Shown: piece by piece, positions 1,503 to 54,318 of the stretch
How positions within the stretch are numbered: position 1 is the stretch's first letter
Layout of the letters: the number at the start of each line of letters is the position of its first letter
NCBI RefSeq assembly: GCF_000717715.1
Contig: NZ_JOAI01000014.1
Span: 62,001-126,000 of the forward strand
DNA: 64,000 nucleotides
Direction: 5' to 3'
From: Streptomyces sp. NRRL B-24484
GTDB lineage: Bacteria > Actinomycetota > Actinomycetes > Streptomycetales > Streptomycetaceae
Translations under genes and position numbers: made by a program
Notes under the pieces: model-generated
Database searches by the model: none
What the model was told of the DNA's origin: nothing
What the model saw: the letters and a program-made list of their open reading frames with translations, nothing else

Positions 1503-3599
1503 TCAGCTGCGGAAGGTGTCGCTCAGGGCGACCGGGCCGCTCGCCGGGACGGTGGCCGTCCGGTTCGCGCCGCTCTCCCAGGTGACGTTTCCGCTCGCGT
1601 CCTTGCGGATGTACTTGTACTCGAAGGCGGTGCCGGCGGCCATCGCCACGTCCAGCTTCCAGACCGGGTAGCTCGCCGAGGAGAGCAGCAGGGCGGAGCC
1701 GGTGTTCCAGTTGCCGAGGGCGGCGTTGTTGCCGACCACGTAGATGTTCTGGCCGGTCACGGTGGTGGCGTTGACCGCGAACGAGGCCCCGGTGGTGGAG
1801 GAGGTCGGGGTGCTGGTCGGGGTCGCCGTCGGGGTGCTGGTGGCGCACGGGTCGCCGCTGCCGACCGCGCCGTCCTTGACGGTCACGTTGCCGGTGCCGA
1901 GCGCGTAGTTGGCGCTGTTGTTGTTGTCCCAGGTGCCGGAGCCGTTGTTGAAGGTGGCGGCGAGGCCGGCGGCGGTGCCGAGGTCGGCGGTGTACTTGAC
2001 CCAGCCGGTGCAGGCCGCGGTCATCGCGACGCCGGGGGAGGTCGTCCAGGTGCCGCCGGTGGGCGCGTAGTGCAGGTAGTAGGCCGACCAGTTCTTGTTC
2101 GTGGAGTAGAAGACGGTCGCGCTGCTGCTGCCGGTGGGCGTGGCGGTCGGGGTCGGGGTGGAGGTGGGCTGGCCGCCCGCGCCGACGTAGAGGGCGACGG
2201 CGTCACCGGCGGCGACGGTGGCGGTGAACTTGCCGTCGGAGCCGACGGTGTAGGTGGTGCCGGTGCAACCGCCGGAGACCGGGTCGCCGTGCTGGACGTC
2301 GCAGTAGGTGCCGGCGGGCAGCGAGGTCTGGAAGGTCTGGGTGATCGAGCCGGACTCGCGGTTGATCGCGACGAAGCCCTTGCTGCCGCGGCCGAAGGCG
2401 ATCGCGTTGTTTCCGTTGGACCACCAGTTGGTCATCGCGGTGCCGGAGACGGCGTTGCGGAAGCCGACCATGTTGGCGACCTGGCGCCAGGCGTGGGTGC
2501 AGTTCCAGCCGTCGCTGTAGCAGGCGTTGACGGTGCCGCCGTTCGGCGGGCCGTCGTCGTTGCCGGTGAAGGCGTAGCCGGAGTAGACGTTCGGCGAGCC
2601 GTACGGGTGGGCCAGCATGAAGACGTTGGCCAGCGTGTAGGCGGAGCCGTACTTGTAGTTGAGGGTCGAGCCGTTGCGCTCGGTGTCCCAGTTGTCGACG
2701 AAGGTGCGGGCCTGGCCGCTCGCGAGCAGGCCGTTGCCCCAGGTGGAGAGGTCGGAGATCCTCCCGCCGTTGAAGGCGCTCTTCAGCCAGGTGCCGGAAC
2801 GGAACTCGTCGACGTCGCCGAGTCCGGTGTACTCGGAGGGCTGGATCGGCTCGCCGGCGCCGTAGATGACCTCGGTCACCCAGTAGGCGTTCGGGTTGCT
2901 CATCTTCGCCTTGATGGCGGACAGGTCGGAGGCGGCGATGTGCTTGGCGGCGTCGATCCGGAAGCCGTCCACGCCGAGGGTGAGCAGGTCGCTCAGGTAG
3001 TTGGCGATGGTCTGCTGGACGTAACCGGAGCCGGTGTCCAGGTCGGAGAGGTTGACCAGTTCGCAGTTCTGCACGTTGGAGCGGTCGCCGTAGTTGCTGA
3101 TCGCCTGGCGGCAGGAGTGGAAGTCCTGGTCCTGGTAGTAGCCCGGGTAGTTGTACTTGGTGTAGACGGTGCCGCCGGTGCCCGTCCCGGAGCCGGCCGA
3201 CATGTGGTTGACCACCGAGTCGGCGATCACCTTGACGCCCGCCGCGTGACAGGTGGTCACCATGGACTGGAAGGCGGCGCGGTCGCCGAGCCGTCCGGCG
3301 ATCTTGTAACTGACCGGCTGGTAGGACGTCCACCACTGGGCGCCCTGGATGTGCTCCTGGGGCGGCGAGACCTCGACGAAGCCGTAGCCCTTGGGGCCGA
3401 GCGTGTCGGTGCAGGCCTTGGCGACGGAGTCGAACTTCCACTCGAAGAGGGTGGCGGTGACGTCCTTGGTGCTGGGCGGGGTGGCCTCGGCGGTGGGGGC
3501 GATCGAAAGACCGGCACCGATCGAGAGGGCCAGGGCGGCGGACGCGGTGAGTGCGCCGATCGCGCGGCCTCTGCGGCCCGCGCTGACGGTGGTGACCAC
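1503..3599 (-). CDS. Secreted modular alpha-amylase (GH13, CBM25-like and CBM20)
   Basis: About 698 residues from a GTG start preceded by CAGGAG six bases upstream; longer in-frame readings lack a signal sequence. A twin-arginine-containing signal region is followed by an exported GH13 barrel with [10 protein letters not shown] (nucleophile Asp, around residue 210), TEVIYG (acid Glu) and the FVDNWD region (transition-state Asp). A Thr-Pro linker leads to a CBM25-like starch-binding module (around 490-585), and a second linker to a C-terminal CBM20 (around 600-698, [11 protein letters not shown]). The enzyme endo-hydrolyses starch outside the cell. Its promoter carries MalR/Reg1-type repeats, consistent with maltodextrin induction and glucose repression. 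Confidence 0.93.
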
Positions 3600-3738
3600 G
3601 GTGTCTCCTGGGGCTGGGTGGGGGTGAGCCTGGCCGCCCGCGACGCAGGGGGGTGGCGGGCGGTGGTGCAGGAGTGCTGCGGAGGGTGGGGGGCGCGACC
3701 GCGATACGCCGTCTGCGCGGAACCGACCGTGCGGGTTT

Positions 3739-7200: not shown

Positions 7201-9531
7201 TCAGCTCGTCTGGATCGAGGTGTCGTCGATCACGAAGCTGGTCTGCAGCGAGGAGTCCTCCACGCCGTTGAACTTCAGGGTGACCGACTGGCCCGCGTAG
7301 GCCGACAGGTCGATCGTCTTCTGGCTGTAGCCGGTCGCCTTGTTGAGGTTCGAGTACGAGGCGACGGTGGTGCCGTTGACCGTGACGGTCAGCTTGTCGT
7401 ACGCGGTGGAGGTGGTGGTCTCCGCCGTGTCGATGTGCAGCCAGTAGCTCAGGGTGGCCTTGCAGCCGGCCGGGATGCTCACCGTCTGCGAGATGCTGTC
7501 CGTGTGGCTGGAGCCGTAGCCGTCCAGCCAGGCCTTCCAGGTGCCGCTGTGCGAGGCCTGGGAGGTGGAGCTGTCGATGACGCCGCTGGTGGAGGTCCAG
7601 GTGGTGCTGCCGGACTCGAAGCCGGCGTTGCCGAGCAGCTGCGCCGGGGTGCAGCTGCCGCCGCCGCCGGAGTTGACCGTCCAGGTGAAGCTGGTGGTGC
7701 CGGTCTTGTTCGCGGCGTCCTTGGCGGTCACGGTCACGTTGTAGGTGCCCGCGGTGGTGGCGGTGCCGGTGATCAGGCCGCCGGAGCTGATCGACAGGCC
7801 GGTCGGCAGGCCGGTGGCGCTGAAGGTCAGCGGGGCGGTGCCGCCACTGGCCTGGATCTGCAGGTTGGCGGTGCCGTTGAGGGCGGTGGTCTGGTTGCCC
7901 GGGTTGGTGACGGTGACGGTGCCGCTCGGCAGCGAGCCGACGTTGACCGCGGCCCAGGCGGTGGCGACCGCGTTGTACTCGGCGCTGCCGTTGCCGTACA
8001 GGTCGGTGGCGGCGTTCAGGGTCGCGGTGCGGGCGGCCGCGTAGTTGGTGGTCGAGGTCATGTAGACGCTCAGCGCGCGGTACCAGATCTTCGCGGCCTT
8101 GTCCCGGTTGATGCCGGTGACGGCGATGTTGTTGACCGTCGGCGAGTTGTAGCTGACGCCGTTGATGACCTTGGCACCGCTGCCCTCGGCCAGCAGGTAG
8201 AAGAAGTGGTTGGCGACGCCGGACGAGTAGTGCACGTCCAGGTTGCCGACGCCCGAGTACCAGGAGTCGGCGGAGCTGCCGTCCTTGGAGGGCTTGTCCA
8301 TGTACCGCAGCGGCGTGCCGTCGCCGTTGATGTTGATGAGCTCGCCGATGAGGTAGTCGGGGTTGTCCGACGGGATGTTGGCGTTGAACTCGACCATGCT
8401 GCCGAAGATGTCGGAGGTGGCCTCGTTGAGGCCGCCCGACTCGCCCGAGTAGTTCAGGTTGGCGGTGTTCGAGGTGACGCCGTGGCTCATCTCGTGGCCG
8501 GCGACGTCGAGTTCGGTCAGCGGGGCGTTGTTGCCCGAGCCGTCGCCGTAGGTCATGCAGAAGCAGCCGTCGTCCCAGAACGCGTTCACGTAGTTGTTGC
8601 CGTAGTGCACGCGGCTGTAGGCACCGACGCCGTCGCCCTTGATGCCGCTGCGGCCGTGGACGTTCTTGAAGTAGTCCCAGGTGGCCGCGACGCCGAAGTG
8701 GGCGTCGACCGCGGCGGACTCCGAGTTGGAGGCCGAGCCGTTGCCCCAGGTGTCGGTGGACTTGGTGTACAGGGTGCCGGCGCCGGAGGTGCCGTGGTTC
8801 AGGTTGGTGGTGTAGCCGTTGCCGCGGCCGCCGTCCTTCATCTGGTACGTCGAGCCCGACAGCGTGGTGCCGATGGTGACGTTGCCGACGAAGACGCCGG
8901 TGCCGGTGCCGGTCTTGATGCCCTCGGCCTTCTGGATCACGTTGCCGGTGGTGGCGTCGGTGATCACGTGCAGCTTGCTCGGGGTGCCGTCCGACTCGGT
9001 GCCGGAGACGACCGTCTCCCAGGCGAGGCGCGGGGCGCCGTCGGCGGCCCAGACGACCAGCCGCGGGGCGGTGTCCAGGGCGGAGCCCGACTCGGCCGCC
9101 AGCGCGGTGGCCTGGGCCTTCGGCGCGGCCAGCTTGGGCGTGGTGTTCACGCCGGTCAGAACGGCCTGGCTGGCCTTGTCCACGCTCTTGGTCGCACCGG
9201 CCGCGGTCTGGTGCACGACCAGGTCGCCGCCGAGCACGGGGAGTCCGGCGTAGGTGCGCTCGTACCGCAGGTGGCGGGTGCCGTCCGCGTCCACGATCGC
9301 GTCCTTGACGACGAGCTTCTCCTGCGCGCCGAGGCCGAGCGTCTGGGCGACGGCGGCGCTGCGCTGGCCGGCGTCGGACAGCAGCTGGGCGCGGTTCGCG
9401 GCCGCCTGCGGGGCCACGGCGGAGGGCGTGGTGGGTGCGGCGTTGGCCACGACCGGGATGCCGGTCACCAGCAGGGCAGTGGTGGCCGCCAGCGCGGCCA
9501 TACTCACCCGGGCAGGGGTGTAGCGGGACAT
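7201..9531 (-). CDS. Secreted M4 (thermolysin-type) zinc metallopeptidase with Ig-like and C-terminal binding domains
   Basis: 776 residues from an ATG with a strong AAAGGAG site. A signal peptide ending near VVANAAP is followed by an FTP/PepSY-type propeptide. The catalytic domain carries HEMSH (zinc ligands and catalytic Glu, about residue 345) and downstream NEATSD supplying the third ligand Glu. After the peptidase C-terminal helices come a putative Ig domain (GTAPLTFSATGLPTG..., around 545-617), a Gly linker and a roughly 150-residue carbohydrate-binding-like domain. It is a secreted neutral protease matured by propeptide cleavage, with its own promoter and terminator. Confidence 0.92.
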   Translation of the reverse strand: MSRYTPARVSMAALAATTALLVTGIPVVANAAPTTPSAVAPQAAANRAQLLSDAGQRSAAVAQTLGLGAQEKLVVKDAIVDADGTRHLRYERTYAGLPVLGGDLVVHQTAAGATKSVDKASQAVLTGVNTTPKLAAPKAQATALAAESGSALDTAPRLVVWAADGAPRLAWETVVSGTESDGTPSKLHVITDATTGNVIQKAEGIKTGTGTGVFVGNVTIGTTLSGSTYQMKDGGRGNGYTTNLNHGTSGAGTLYTKSTDTWGNGSASNSESAAVDAHFGVAATWDYFKNVHGRSGIKGDGVGAYSRVHYGNNYVNAFWDDGCFCMTYGDGSGNNAPLTELDVAGHEMSHGVTSNTANLNYSGESGGLNEATSDIFGSMVEFNANIPSDNPDYLIGELININGDGTPLRYMDKPSKDGSSADSWYSGVGNLDVHYSSGVANHFFYLLAEGSGAKVINGVSYNSPTVNNIAVTGINRDKAAKIWYRALSVYMTSTTNYAAARTATLNAATDLYGNGSAEYNAVATAWAAVNVGSLPSGTVTVTNPGNQTTALNGTANLQIQASGGTAPLTFSATGLPTGLSISSGGLITGTATTAGTYNVTVTAKDAANKTGTTSFTWTVNSGGGGSCTPAQLLGNAGFESGSTTWTSTSGVIDSSTSQASHSGTWKAWLDGYGSSHTDSISQTVSIPAGCKATLSYWLHIDTAETTTSTAYDKLTVTVNGTTVASYSNLNKATGYSQKTIDLSAYAGQSVTLKFNGVEDSSLQTSFVIDDTSIQTS

Positions 9532-51041: not shown

Positions 51042-53027
51042 TCAGCGGCGCGGCTTGAGCATCCGCAGGGTCCAGCCCTCGCCGGCCGGGTCGAGCGGGC
51101 GGGTGGCCAGCTTGAAGAGGTGCTCGGCGCGCTCGTACGAGAGTCGCGCGCGGCCGGTCTCCGGGCAGAGGTCGGCGGGTGCGGGTGTGCGGCCGGGGCC
51201 CGGTCGGCGGTCGGTGAGGAAGAGCGGGCCCCGGGTGCGTCCGGCGAGCAGGTCGGGCAGCAGGCGGGCCGTGCCGGAGCGCCACAGCACCCCGGGGTCG
51301 CCGTGGTGGGTGCTGCGGTCGTCGAGGTCGAGGTCCTGGACGTCCAGCGCCAGGACGGTCCGGACGGGCGCGGCGGACTCGTGCAGCAGCCGCCAGAGGG
51401 TGCGTTCCCGCACGGAGGGACCGGGCAGCGTCCAGAGCCGTTCGAGCTGGTCGGGGGCGAGGCCTGCGGTACGGCCGGGCGGTTCGGGGCGGCGTTCGAG
51501 GCCCGCCGCCAGGTCGTCCAGCGCGGCCCAGGCGGCGAAGGAGCGGACGGCCGCGCGGTGCCGGTTCCAGGTCCGCGGCGCGGCGGTGCCCCAGGCGGTG
51601 GCGAAGACCTCGGCGACCCGGTCGGCGGTGAGCGAGCCGAGCGGCAGTTCGTCGCCGAGCGCCAGCCGCAGCCGCCGCAGGGTCTGCCCGTACGAGCGGA
51701 CGGTCGCCGCGTCCAGGCCGTCCCGGTCGAGGAACGCCCGGGCGGTGGTGCCGAGGACGGCGGCCGGCGGTCCGGCGGGCGCTGCGGGCCCGGCCGGCAG
51801 CGCGGCGGCGCGGCGGTCCAGGAAGGCGCGTTCCGCGGCGTTGTGGGTGAGGGCGGCGGCCCGCCGGAACTCCAGGCGGGCCTCGCCGGTGCGGCCGAGC
51901 CGTTCCAGCAGGTCGCCGCGGACCCCGGGCAGCAGGTGGTAGTCGCGCAGCGCCGGGTCGGCGGTCAGCTCGTCGACGAGGTCCAGCCCGGCCTGCGGCC
52001 CGTACGCCCTGCCCACCGCCACGGCCCGGTTGAGCCGGACGACCGGGGTGGGCAGCAGCCGTTCCAGGGCCGTGTAGAGGGTCGCGATCTGCCGCCAGTC
52101 GGTGGCCTCCGCGGTGGGCGCCTGTGCGTGGCAGACCGCGATCGCCGCCTGCAGCACGTACGGGCCGGGCGGGCCGCCGCACTCCCGGGCGCGCAGCATC
52201 GCGGTGAAGCCGCGACGGATCAGCAGCCGGTCCCAGCGGCCGCGGTTCTGCTCGTGCAGTTGGACGGGCTCGCCGGACGGCCCGGTGCGCGCGGCCGAGC
52301 GGGACGCCTGGATCTCCATCAGGGCGACGAGGCCGTGCACTTCGGCCTCGTGCGGGGCGACCGTGGCGAGCAGCCGCCCGAGCCTCAGCGCCTCCAGGCA
52401 GAGGCCCGGCCGCATGAGGTCGTCGCCGCCGGTGGCCGCGTACCCCTCGTTGAAGACCAGGTAGACGACCTCCAGCACCGAGGAGAGCCGGTCCGCGAGC
52501 CGGTCCCCGGCCGGCAGTTCGAACGGCACCTGCTGCTCGGCGAGCGTGCGCTTGGCGGCGGCGATGCGCTTCGCCACCACCGGCTCCGGAACGAGGAAGG
52601 CGCGGGCGATCTCGGCGGCCGTCAGACCGCCGAGCAGACGCAGCGTCAGCGCGACCCGCGCCTCGGTCGACAGGACGGGGTGGCAGGAGACGAACATCAG
52701 GCGCAGCACGTCGTCCCGGTCGTCCTCGGGCGCGGCCTCGCCCGACTGCCTGAGTTCGTGGGCGAGTTGCTCGTGTCGCCGTTCCAGCCGGCCGTCGCGG
52801 CGGATGCGGTCGACGGCCCGGCGCCTGGCGATGGCGGTCAGCCAGGCGCCGGGGTTGTCGGGGACGCCCGACTCCGGCCACTGTTCGAGGGCGGCGACCA
52901 GCGCGTCCTGGGCCAACTCCTCGGCGAGGCCGACGTCGCGCACGATGCCGGTGAGCGCGGCGATGATCCTCGCCGACTCGAGTTTCCAGACCGCGTCGAT
53001 CGTGCGGTGGACATCCGGCACGGCCAC
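51042..53027 (-). CDS. ECF42-type sigma factor fused to a truncated tyrosine-recombinase-like domain
   Basis: 661 residues. Residues 1-405 form a complete ECF42 sigma factor: region 2 (GLAEELAQDALVAALEQWP, then DNPGAWLTAIARRRAVDRIRR), region 4 (GLTAAEIARAFLVPEPVVAKRI) and the long helical extension (LIRRGFTAMLRARE..., RLNRAVAVGRAYGP). A Pro/Ala linker (406-425) leads without a stop to a core-binding SAM-like segment (ATVRSYGQTLRRL, WNRHRAAVRSFAAW), box-I-like PVRTVLALDVQDLDLDDR (Arg556), and LSYERAEHLFKLATR. The frame ends at TLRMLKPRR, where catalytic HxxR and Tyr should follow. Regulates transcription; the recombinase part is presumably inactive. Lies 78 bp behind a YCII-family gene, the usual ECF42 partner. 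Confidence 0.85.
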   Translation of the reverse strand: MAVPDVHRTIDAVWKLESARIIAALTGIVRDVGLAEELAQDALVAALEQWPESGVPDNPGAWLTAIARRRAVDRIRRDGRLERRHEQLAHELRQSGEAAPEDDRDDVLRLMFVSCHPVLSTEARVALTLRLLGGLTAAEIARAFLVPEPVVAKRIAAAKRTLAEQQVPFELPAGDRLADRLSSVLEVVYLVFNEGYAATGGDDLMRPGLCLEALRLGRLLATVAPHEAEVHGLVALMEIQASRSAARTGPSGEPVQLHEQNRGRWDRLLIRRGFTAMLRARECGGPPGPYVLQAAIAVCHAQAPTAEATDWRQIATLYTALERLLPTPVVRLNRAVAVGRAYGPQAGLDLVDELTADPALRDYHLLPGVRGDLLERLGRTGEARLEFRRAAALTHNAAERAFLDRRAAALPAGPAAPAGPPAAVLGTTARAFLDRDGLDAATVRSYGQTLRRLRLALGDELPLGSLTADRVAEVFATAWGTAAPRTWNRHRAAVRSFAAWAALDDLAAGLERRPEPPGRTAGLAPDQLERLWTLPGPSVRERTLWRLLHESAAPVRTVLALDVQDLDLDDRSTHHGDPGVLWRSGTARLLPDLLAGRTRGPLFLTDRRPGPGRTPAPADLCPETGRARLSYERAEHLFKLATRPLDPAGEGWTLRMLKPRR

Positions 53028-53105: not shown

Positions 53106-53429
53106 TCAGGGGCCGAAGACCTGCTGGACGACGCTCTCTCCGTCGCCGACGATCCGGCGGAAGCGGCGGGCCATCTCGATCGCCTCCTCCTTGGAACGGA
53201 CCTCGACCAGCGCGAAGCCGGCCACGGCCTCCTTCGCCTCGGTGAAGGGCCCGTCGGTGACGGTGATCTCGTCGCCGGAGGAAACCAGGCGGACGCCGCC
53301 CGGCTCCAGGCCGCCGGTCGCCAGCAGCACGCCGGCCGCGGTCAGCTCCTCGATGAACGCGCCCATCTCGGCGAAGAGCTTCTCGTCGGGGGCGGCGTCG
53401 GTCGGCTTGGTGGTCATCAGAAAACGCAC
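53106..53429 (-). CDS. YCII/DGPF-domain protein
   Basis: 107 residues from GTG with GAGGAGACAAGCC upstream. Features DGPFTEAKEAVAGFALVEVRSKEEAIEMARRF, the DGPF motif of YCII-like proteins. These are the standard neighbours of ECF42 sigma factors and are thought to be part of the same response. First gene of the YCII-sigma unit, downstream of the nested inverted repeat. Confidence 0.9.
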   Translation of the reverse strand: MRFLMTTKPTDAAPDEKLFAEMGAFIEELTAAGVLLATGGLEPGGVRLVSSGDEITVTDGPFTEAKEAVAGFALVEVRSKEEAIEMARRFRRIVGDGESVVQQVFGP

Positions 53430-53477: not shown

Positions 53478-53558
53478 GCTGCCCTCACGTCGAACGGAGT
53501 GATGTGACAGGGAGCAGCGCCATTCCCTGTCACATCGGCCGGTCGACGTGAGGGCAGC
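53478..53558. promoter_or_regulatory. 81-bp nested inverted repeat between divergent units
   Basis: Outer arms GCTGCCCTCACGTCGA (53478-53493) and TCGACGTGAGGGCAGC (53543-53558) are perfect 16-mers. Inner arms GATGTGACAGGGA (53501-53513) and TCCCTGTCACATC (53524-53536) are perfect 13-mers. Both outgoing strands read CCCTGTCACATC, 11-12 nt, then CGACGTGAGGGCAGC. Between divergent genes this cannot be a terminator; it most resembles two mirror-image promoters or operators, or a cruciform. Confidence 0.6.
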
Positions 53559-53604: not shown

Positions 53605-54318
53605 ATGACCGCCGCACCCGCCACCGCCACCCACTCCCCCGCCACACACTCCCCCGCCGCACCCGTCCGCACCGGCCCCGCCGGCGGCGCGACCACGGCC
53701 GCGCCGGGCACCCGCACCCTGCTGCTCTGCGGTGCGGTCGCCGGCCCGCTCTGGGCCGCGGTCGCTCTGGCCCAGGCCGCCACCCGGACGGGCTTCGACC
53801 TCACCCGCCACCCGCTGAGCGCACTGAGCAACGGCGACCTCGGCCCGCTGCAGATCGCGAACTTCCTGCTCGCCGGCCTCCTCACCGTCCTCGGCGCCAC
53901 CGGCCTGCACCGCACCCTGGCCGGAACGCCCGGCGGCCGCTGGGCACCCCGGCTCGTCCGCACCTACGGCCTGGGCATGATCGCCGCCGGTGTCCTGGTC
54001 ATGGACCCGGCCGACGGGTTCCCGGTCGGCACCCCGGACGGCATGCCGCCGAGCCTGAGCTGGCACGCCGTCGGACACCTGCTGTCCGGCGCGGTCTCCT
54101 TCACCGCCCTGATCGCCGCCTGCTACGTCCTCGGCCGCCACTTCGCCCGGACCGGCCACCGCGGCCGGGCCCTCGCCTCCCGCGCCGCGGGCACGGCCCT
54201 GCTGCTCGGCGACGGCTGGGCCATGACCGGCGGCCCGGCCGGGTCGCTCACCCTCGCCATCGGTGCGATCACCGCAATGGTCTGGGTCTCCGCCGTCGCC
54301 GCCGACCGCCTCCGCTGA
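53605..54318 (+). CDS. DUF998-family membrane protein
   Basis: 237 residues from ATG with AGGAGGACCCACC. Six or so membrane helices with the DUF998 opening GAVAGPLWAAVALAQAATRTGFDLTRHPLSALSNG. Members are found next to ECF42 sigma factors and DUF1801 genes. Function unknown; first gene to the right of the nested repeat. Confidence 0.85.
   Translation: MTAAPATATHSPATHSPAAPVRTGPAGGATTAAPGTRTLLLCGAVAGPLWAAVALAQAATRTGFDLTRHPLSALSNGDLGPLQIANFLLAGLLTVLGATGLHRTLAGTPGGRWAPRLVRTYGLGMIAAGVLVMDPADGFPVGTPDGMPPSLSWHAVGHLLSGAVSFTALIAACYVLGRHFARTGHRGRALASRAAGTALLLGDGWAMTGGPAGSLTLAIGAITAMVWVSAVAADRLR

Follow-up and report, generated by a model that had tools for sequence, protein, structure and literature searches.

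The window, that is, the whole 64,000-nucleotide stretch of DNA from Streptomyces sp. NRRL B-24484 analysed here (contig NZ_JOAI01000014.1, positions 62,001 to 126,000), carries on its minus strand a gene in which a sigma factor of the ECF42 group is joined to the first half of a tyrosine recombinase. We refer to the recombinase part as the half-recombinase module (HR). The operon promoter upstream of this gene has what appears to be a recombinase half-site at its -35 position, where unfused ECF42 operons have the hexamer TGTCGA.

The fused gene and its recombinase part

The gene and the parts of its product are as follows (coordinates are those of the window).

51042..53027, minus strand: fused gene, ECF42 sigma factor plus half tyrosine recombinase; a single open frame that starts with GTG, stops with TGA and encodes 661 aa
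52788..52967, minus strand: sigma region 2 (sigma2), residues 21-80, the expected -10 reader (PF04542, Sigma70_r2, E 6e-10)
52542..52694, minus strand: sigma region 4 (sigma4), residues 112-162 (PF08281, Sigma70_r4_2)
52188..52490, minus strand: DUF6596, the ECF42 C-terminal extension, residues 180-280 (PF20239, E 6e-34)
51045..51752, minus strand: HR, residues 426-661, core-binding domain plus first half of the catalytic domain (PF02899, XerD profile match, Foldseek)
51366..51368, minus strand: codon for Pro554, where intact relatives have the catalytic Arg of box I (by alignment)
51045..51071, minus strand: C-terminal TLRMLKPRR, aligned to box II (TLHRLRHS) of intact relatives; end of the protein

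The N-terminal part has the ECF42 layout, with sigma2 and sigma4 present and sigma3 absent (PF04542, PF08281), followed by the C-terminal extension of ~200 residues that marks the group. In the AlphaFold2 model the helices of the extension run on to residue ~409; the Pfam match of the extension to TPR_2 is weak (E 0.14). There is no stop codon in the window's frame at the sigma/recombinase junction. A Pfam search with the whole 661-aa protein placed a core-binding domain (Phage_int_SAM_1, PF02899) at residues 440-502 (E 5e-5) and did not find PF00589. The mean predicted local distance difference test score (pLDDT) was 88.5 for the full fused protein and 92.8 for HR alone. When the HR model was compared with the PDB using Foldseek, 32 chains matched at E <= 0.001 and every one was a tyrosine recombinase, the matches including XerA, phage Brujita integrase, Tn1549 Int, archaeal Xer, integron IntI4, XerD, lambda Int, Cre and Tre. 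The full-protein model gave no PDB match at E 0.001 or better, the best being XerA at 0.002. A profile built from HR and its relatives matched XerD (1a0p) with E 4e-11.

These domains, in one frame with no stop at the junction, bear out the initial annotation, which had described, with no strand stated, an ECF42 factor with its helical extension fused in frame to a recombinase part. Separate genes with a stop near 51780, which it had named as grounds for giving up the fusion, were not seen in the genomes read, and the fused frame recurs across many species. We dropped the idea that a stop or frameshift had been missed at the junction, because the fused frame recurs in 41 loci (28 + 12 and the window).

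HR shares with XerA/XerD, integron IntI, lambda Int and Cre the core-binding domain and the first half of the catalytic fold; unlike them, it lacks the box I Arg, HxxR, the nucleophilic Tyr and the second half of the catalytic domain. Its intact relatives have the box I Arg (e.g. ESAARADEVL), HxxR (LHRLRHS) and the Tyr. Aligned with TLHRLRHS of these relatives, the TLRMLKP of the window's protein has Arg for the His and Lys for the Arg of HxxR. The recombinase part had first been taken to include box I and to end before HxxR. We agree that no working HxxR or Tyr is present, but the protein ends on HxxR rather than before it, and box I is there as part of the fold but not as a catalytic arginine. 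With this arginine replaced, here by Pro, HR is dead at box I as well.

A search with residues 420-661, in which the 7993 best candidates (those with most shared words) were scored, identified 613 homologues at E <= 0.001. Of these, 120 are listed, and the 613 relatives rule out a one-off curiosity. All but one of the 120 listed homologues are at least 540 aa long and show PF20239 (DUF6596); the listed fused proteins come from Kitasatospora, Streptomyces, Streptosporangium, Planomonospora, Amycolatopsis, Saccharopolyspora, Thermomonospora and other genera. By a crude pattern, 119/120 stop no more than 45 aa past a common TL-x-x-L motif, with YTLRQLKPR-like ends, and none of the 120 has an RHS/RHT motif in the last 150 aa. 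Box I, also placed by a crude pattern, could be located in 110 of the 120, and its Arg was swapped for Gly, Ala, Pro or other residues in the fused proteins, with a single Arg among the 110. Judging from crude nucleotide values of the ratio of nonsynonymous to synonymous differences (pN/pS), which lay between 0.24 and 0.55 in ten pairs, HR is under constraint.

Five fused loci from one genus (L224-L228) differ in that the recombinase runs past HxxR to its natural end, with PF00589 present in L224. All five have Pro in box I, and in place of the Tyr four have Phe and one has Leu. Since the full-length recombinase lacks both the box I Arg and the Tyr, catalysis was lost in these loci without halving, and they are apparent evolutionary intermediates consisting of an ECF42 factor and a full-length dead recombinase.

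A half-site box in the operon promoter

The region upstream of the fused gene contains the following features.

53106..53429, minus strand: YCII/DGPF-type gene, 5' of the sigma gene, GTG start (PF03795, E 1e-12)
53502..53514, minus strand: recombinase-type half-site CTCCCTGTCACAT at the -35 position of the YCII-sigma promoter (promoter comparison)
53488..53496, minus strand: -10-like CGTTCGACG, identical to the -10 of unfused ECF42 loci (promoter comparison)
53523..53535, plus strand: second half-site TTCCCTGTCACAT, in inverted orientation to the first and 8 nt away from it (box scan)
53539..53548, plus strand: -10-like CCGGTCGACG of the divergent promoter (promoter comparison)
53605..54318, plus strand: divergent DUF998 gene, predicted second target (PF06197, E 5e-34)

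The YCII gene is found upstream of the fused gene in 41/41 fused loci; in the window, the two inverted boxes sit between it and the divergent DUF998 gene. Promoters of unfused ECF42 operons read TGTCGA-N13-CGTTCGACG, a consensus derived here that we take to be the published ECF42 promoter motif. We tested 22 of 25 unfused loci (L116 was left out, and L146 and L147 gave no YCII match). An exact TGTCGA stood 13 nt before the -10 in 20 of these, the other two having 1 and 2 mismatches, and the -10 matched CGTTCGACG with 0-1 mismatches in 16/22. The box TTCCCTGTCACAT was absent from all 22 unfused promoters (best matches, 5-7 mismatches) and present at 0-2 mismatches upstream of the YCII gene in 41/41 fused loci.

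In 35 of the 41 fused loci (the window and 34 others), which we call rewired, there is no TGTCGA (<=1 mismatch) 12-14 nt before a good -10 (<=2 mismatches), and the distance from the end of the box to the CGACG of the -10 is 9 nt in 29/35 and 8 nt in 6/35. The remaining six, L224-L228 and L231, have kept the ECF42 promoter, with TGTCGA at 0-2 mismatches; L224 has one upstream box and the other five have two, and the end of the nearest box lies 28-41 nt from the -35. In these five the two boxes form direct repeats, 17-18 nt start to start, above the ordinary ECF42 promoter. A second, inverted box is found 8-10 nt from the first in 25 of the 41 fused loci. For the other ten rewired loci, an inverted partner is absent at <=3 mismatches (seven loci) or lies 16, 22 or 55 nt away (three loci).

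The box also accompanies the fusion across genomes. Within the window's genome of 8.86 Mb, the 12-mer TCCCTGTCACAT (<=1 mismatch) occurs at three sites, two of them in this promoter region. The fusion was found in 13/70 genomes of the window's genus, in one of which (G022) it is frame-changed inside HR, and TCCCTGTCACAT-N4-10-CGACG was present in 12 of these 13 and in 0/57 of the others; in the thirteenth fusion genome, G062, the box (L091) differs at 2 positions. In a class-wide sample of 394 genomes, 15 carry the fusion, all of them among the loci read. Two further candidates, G714 (a 715-codon frame) and G178 (600 codons), were rejected because the ECF42 part is absent, so the count of 15 stands. 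One match, in G199, is partial. The exact 13-mer TTCCCTGTCACAT occurred in 14/15 fusion-bearing and 6/379 other genomes of this sample (Fisher p ~3e-20), and the fusion genome without it, G560, has a box with 1 mismatch (L222). The reversed-sequence control was found in 6/394 genomes. Two of the six non-fusion genomes with TTCCCTGTCACAT are not plain background, G679 having an element remnant and G672 the intact recombinase L209, on another contig. A scan of genome contigs returned two loci.

Sigma4 changes along with the promoter. Residue 157 in the recognition helix is Arg in 25/25 unfused proteins, in 6/6 fused proteins whose loci keep TGTCGA and in 3/35 rewired ones. Residue 156 is V, S or T in unfused proteins, V in the six TGTCGA-keeping fused proteins and A in 35/35 rewired ones; the window's protein has Ala/Ala at 156/157.

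In the tree of the sigma part, the 41 fused proteins form one clade (support 98.5/100), within which the 35 rewired loci form one clade (95.7/100) with the other six as its sister. The HR tree likewise recovers the fused proteins as monophyletic (40/40, 93.7/95); it lacks L099 because this locus was left out of the main locus alignment, as were L090, L098, L102 and L105. L231, although its recombinase is trimmed, is among the loci that were not rewired and falls with the untrimmed L224-L228; the fused clade may therefore have undergone trimming more than once.

Intact and free-standing relatives

The half-sites of XerA/XerD, IntI, lambda Int and Cre are arranged as inverted repeats. The closest intact relative of HR, L205, is 54% identical to it and has all catalytic motifs. 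An exact inverted pair, ATGTGACAGGGAA-TAGCCAA-TTCCCTGTCACAT (13-7-13), lies ~0.9 kb upstream of L205, just before a same-direction gene of 116 aa that is perhaps the head of the L205 operon; the pair led us to drop the idea that L205 lacks the box. Within 330 bp upstream of intact recombinases, the best box match had 1 mismatch at L208 and L210, 2 at L209 and 3 at L206 and L207. Among 500 null windows, 2.6% reached <=3 mismatches, and the single case with <=2 was L205's own pair. The 25 loci scanned as intact include L214 and L220, whose C-termini are damaged; 18 of the 25 had 4-6 mismatches to the fused box. Other inverted repeats were CCGCAGTAAAT-ACCGG-ATTTACTGCGG near intact B (L084), CCGCAGATAAC-ACCCT-GTTATCTGCGG near intact A (L080) and TGTGACAGAGAA-TGACATA-TTCTCTGTCACA near L210. 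Judged by its sequence, the fused-promoter box is a recombinase half-site.

We also identified 18 free-standing half-recombinases ("solos"), including L077 5053-5892 in the window's own genome (contig C49). This number excludes four that had been labelled automatically: L082 (an intact-B gene interrupted by a stop), L090 and L098 (frame-broken fusion pieces) and L102 (partial). The solos also end near box II and lack the box I Arg (17/18 aligned), and exact TTTACTGCG/CGCAGTAAA boxes were present in 16/18 upstream regions, with inverted arms tens of bases apart. Because the solos keep their boxes, half-site arrays have survived halving in a second lineage, which includes L077. A single decapitation common to fused and solo proteins is disfavoured, as the joint topology costs 36.7 log-likelihood units (approximately unbiased (AU) test, p 0.006), although the Kishino-Hasegawa (0.060) and Shimodaira-Hasegawa (0.061) tests were less clear-cut; L101 and L113 were left out of the tree used for this comparison. 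Given the AU result, a 100/100 clade of solos with intact B and a shared insertion, the halving of the solos looks independent of that in the fused proteins.

In G679 (contig C50, L233), an ECF42 gene at 2829-3650 + 8534-8926 is split within the sigma4 helix-turn-helix by ~4.9 kb. One junction of the insert bears an inverted TTCCCTGTCACAT-type pair, and the other a truncated gene related to the HR-type recombinase. Though a single case, it hints that elements of this kind can insert into ECF42 genes, and the fusion may have arisen by this route.

Possible roles of the recombinase part

Sigma factors are thought to read promoters through sigma2 and sigma4. We propose, with a probability of about 0.65, that a recombinase domesticated on an ECF42 factor has taken over part of this task, HR reading the -35 side in place of sigma4 through its ancestral half-site while sigma2 reads the -10. 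HR would bind TTCCCTGTCACAT 8-9 nt before CGACG, clamping the box like one recombinase subunit and holding the holoenzyme in place while sigma2 opens the -10, and transcription would be activated in this way. Because the spacing from box to CGACG is fixed at 8-9 nt, both contacts would be made within one complex. The predicted targets lie at its own locus and are the YCII-sigma operon together with the divergent DUF998 gene. The two half-sites between them are turned towards each other as in a recombinase core site, and inverted box pairs may let two molecules meet. As to the order of events, we infer that a recombinase without catalytic residues was joined once behind the ECF42 extension, when a half-site of the dead or dying enzyme stood near an ECF42 promoter, that in most of the family it was then trimmed at box II to HR, and that in one branch the half-site moved into the -35 place and sigma4 lost its own contacts. 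A DNA-binding, non-cutting recombinase module serving as a promoter add-on had already been suggested in the initial annotation, and the half-site match, the co-occurrence with the fusion and the sigma4 change in the rewired clade all support such an add-on, with HR as the putative DNA binder.

Several findings weigh against this proposal. Three of the 35 rewired loci (L058, L067 and L223) keep Arg157. Since the promoter and sigma4 changes each map to one branch, their co-variation may reflect a single event; the hand-over of -35 reading was probably one event, kept since, and does not amount to 35 independent observations. No box stands in the first 330 bp upstream of L205 (best match, 6 mismatches), its pair being further away. 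The more distant intact L073 and L080, which share an identical sequence, also reach 3 mismatches, and in the midpoint-rooted tree fused HR does not have the intact clade L206-L210 as its sister. The pN/pS of HR exceeds that of the sigma part in ten of ten pairs, and a frame change in HR, due to sequencing error or decay, breaks two fused genes (G022:C1:7741860-7742584 and G170:C186:21137-21860).

These frame changes and the weaker constraint on HR than on the sigma part speak for an error of annotation or assembly, or for a read-through tail in decay. We give this explanation almost no credence, since the fused frame comes with the promoter box in 41 loci and 119/120 listed homologues have the architecture and end point in common. 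Another possibility, which we consider unlikely, is that HR binds the box as an autoregulatory domain, with -35 reading secondary; two paired molecules might, for instance, repress or gate the two divergent promoters until released by a signal. The second inverted box 8-10 nt away in 25/41 loci does resemble a recombinase core site, and in the six loci that keep TGTCGA the box closest to the -35 ends 28-41 nt above it, an activator- or operator-like place. There is also a precedent in MrpR (YopR), the master repressor of the SPbeta prophage, described in PMC10516654 as a DNA-binding transcription regulator with a tyrosine-recombinase fold that has lost catalysis. However, 10/35 rewired loci have no close inverted partner and still the box-CGACG distance is 8-9 nt in 35/35, and a pure operator would not require the loss of TGTCGA and the sigma4 residues in the same clade.

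It is also conceivable, though in our view improbable, that sigma4 itself gained specificity for the box and that HR is a protein-interaction or stability module acting off DNA. The recognition-helix residues did change in the same clade as the box, and passages of PMC8999054 and PMC9023288 present ECF42 models in which the TPR (tetratricopeptide repeat) extension works through protein contacts. This explanation fits poorly with a 13-bp box that is longer than the 6-bp -35 it replaced, that matches half-sites near the intact relatives of HR, exactly for the closest, and that also occurs, in an upstream position, in loci with a canonical sigma4. Finally, the boxes could be an attachment site for an intact recombinase acting in trans, which the fusion protects or senses. 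The exact inverted core-like site upstream of the intact L205 and the element remnants with a box inside the ECF42 gene of G679 are in line with this. We judge it very improbable, as 10/15 fusion genomes of the class sample have no further recombinase relative at E <= 1e-20 among the matches listed, and the spacing of the box to the -10 is fixed.

The fused protein resembles the known ECF42 factors (Sven_0747, Sven_4377, Sven_7131 and P. putida ECF-10) in sigma2, sigma4, the DUF6596 TPR-like extension, the adjacent YCII/DGPF gene and the -10 CGTTCGACG. In contrast to them, it has a half-recombinase after the extension, and most fused members have lost the -35 TGTCGA and the sigma4 Arg157 and have a recombinase half-site at -35. 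The word "integrase" is absent from the main texts of PMC8999054, PMC8103513, PMC9205884, PMC11256431, PMC9023288 and PMC11119718, and "recombinase" appears only in that of PMC9205884, for an unrelated gene. We found no description of a fusion of ECF42 with a half recombinase in the literature searched, which did not cover the main ECF42 papers, so that a prior mention is possible.

Like HR, MrpR has a dead recombinase fold (weak Foldseek match to 8a0a, E 0.023), but it is a free-standing, full-length prophage repressor, neither linked to a sigma factor nor decapitated. MrpR shows that a recombinase fold without catalysis can be put to use in the specific control of transcription; for HR, DNA binding is a prediction. 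When phage T4 appropriates sigma with MotA/AsiA, a separate DNA-reading protein replaces the -35 contacts of sigma4, and the phage pair acts in trans. The reader proposed here differs in being fused to the sigma factor and derived from a recombinase.

A foreign DNA-reading module from an enzyme of the mobile-element type thus appears to have been plugged into a sigma factor. We lean, on balance, towards regarding it as a third DNA-reading sigma domain, a decapitated recombinase that took over -35 recognition and left surviving intermediates, with a dead full-length recombinase and the old -35 present, as a record of the hand-over, so that promoter specificity would have been rewritten by capture and not by sigma4 mutation alone. 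The living relatives suggest an order of fusion and loss of catalysis, then a box above an ordinary promoter, then a box at -35 with sigma4 specificity lost. This would open the evolution of promoter specificity to direct test and offer a modular route to orthogonal promoters. If the proposal is true, the halved recombinase would be a DNA-binding module that comes ready-made and has arisen repeatedly, halving at box II having apparently also occurred independently in the free-standing relatives.

The fused box is not the site of integrase A, an intact enzyme in the window's own genome (L076, on C70), as the best match there has 5 mismatches and the boxes differ. L076 is one of thirteen PF00589 matches in this genome, and its upstream boxes are TTATCTGTGG/TTATCTGCGG- and TTATCTGTGG/ATATCTGCGG-like.

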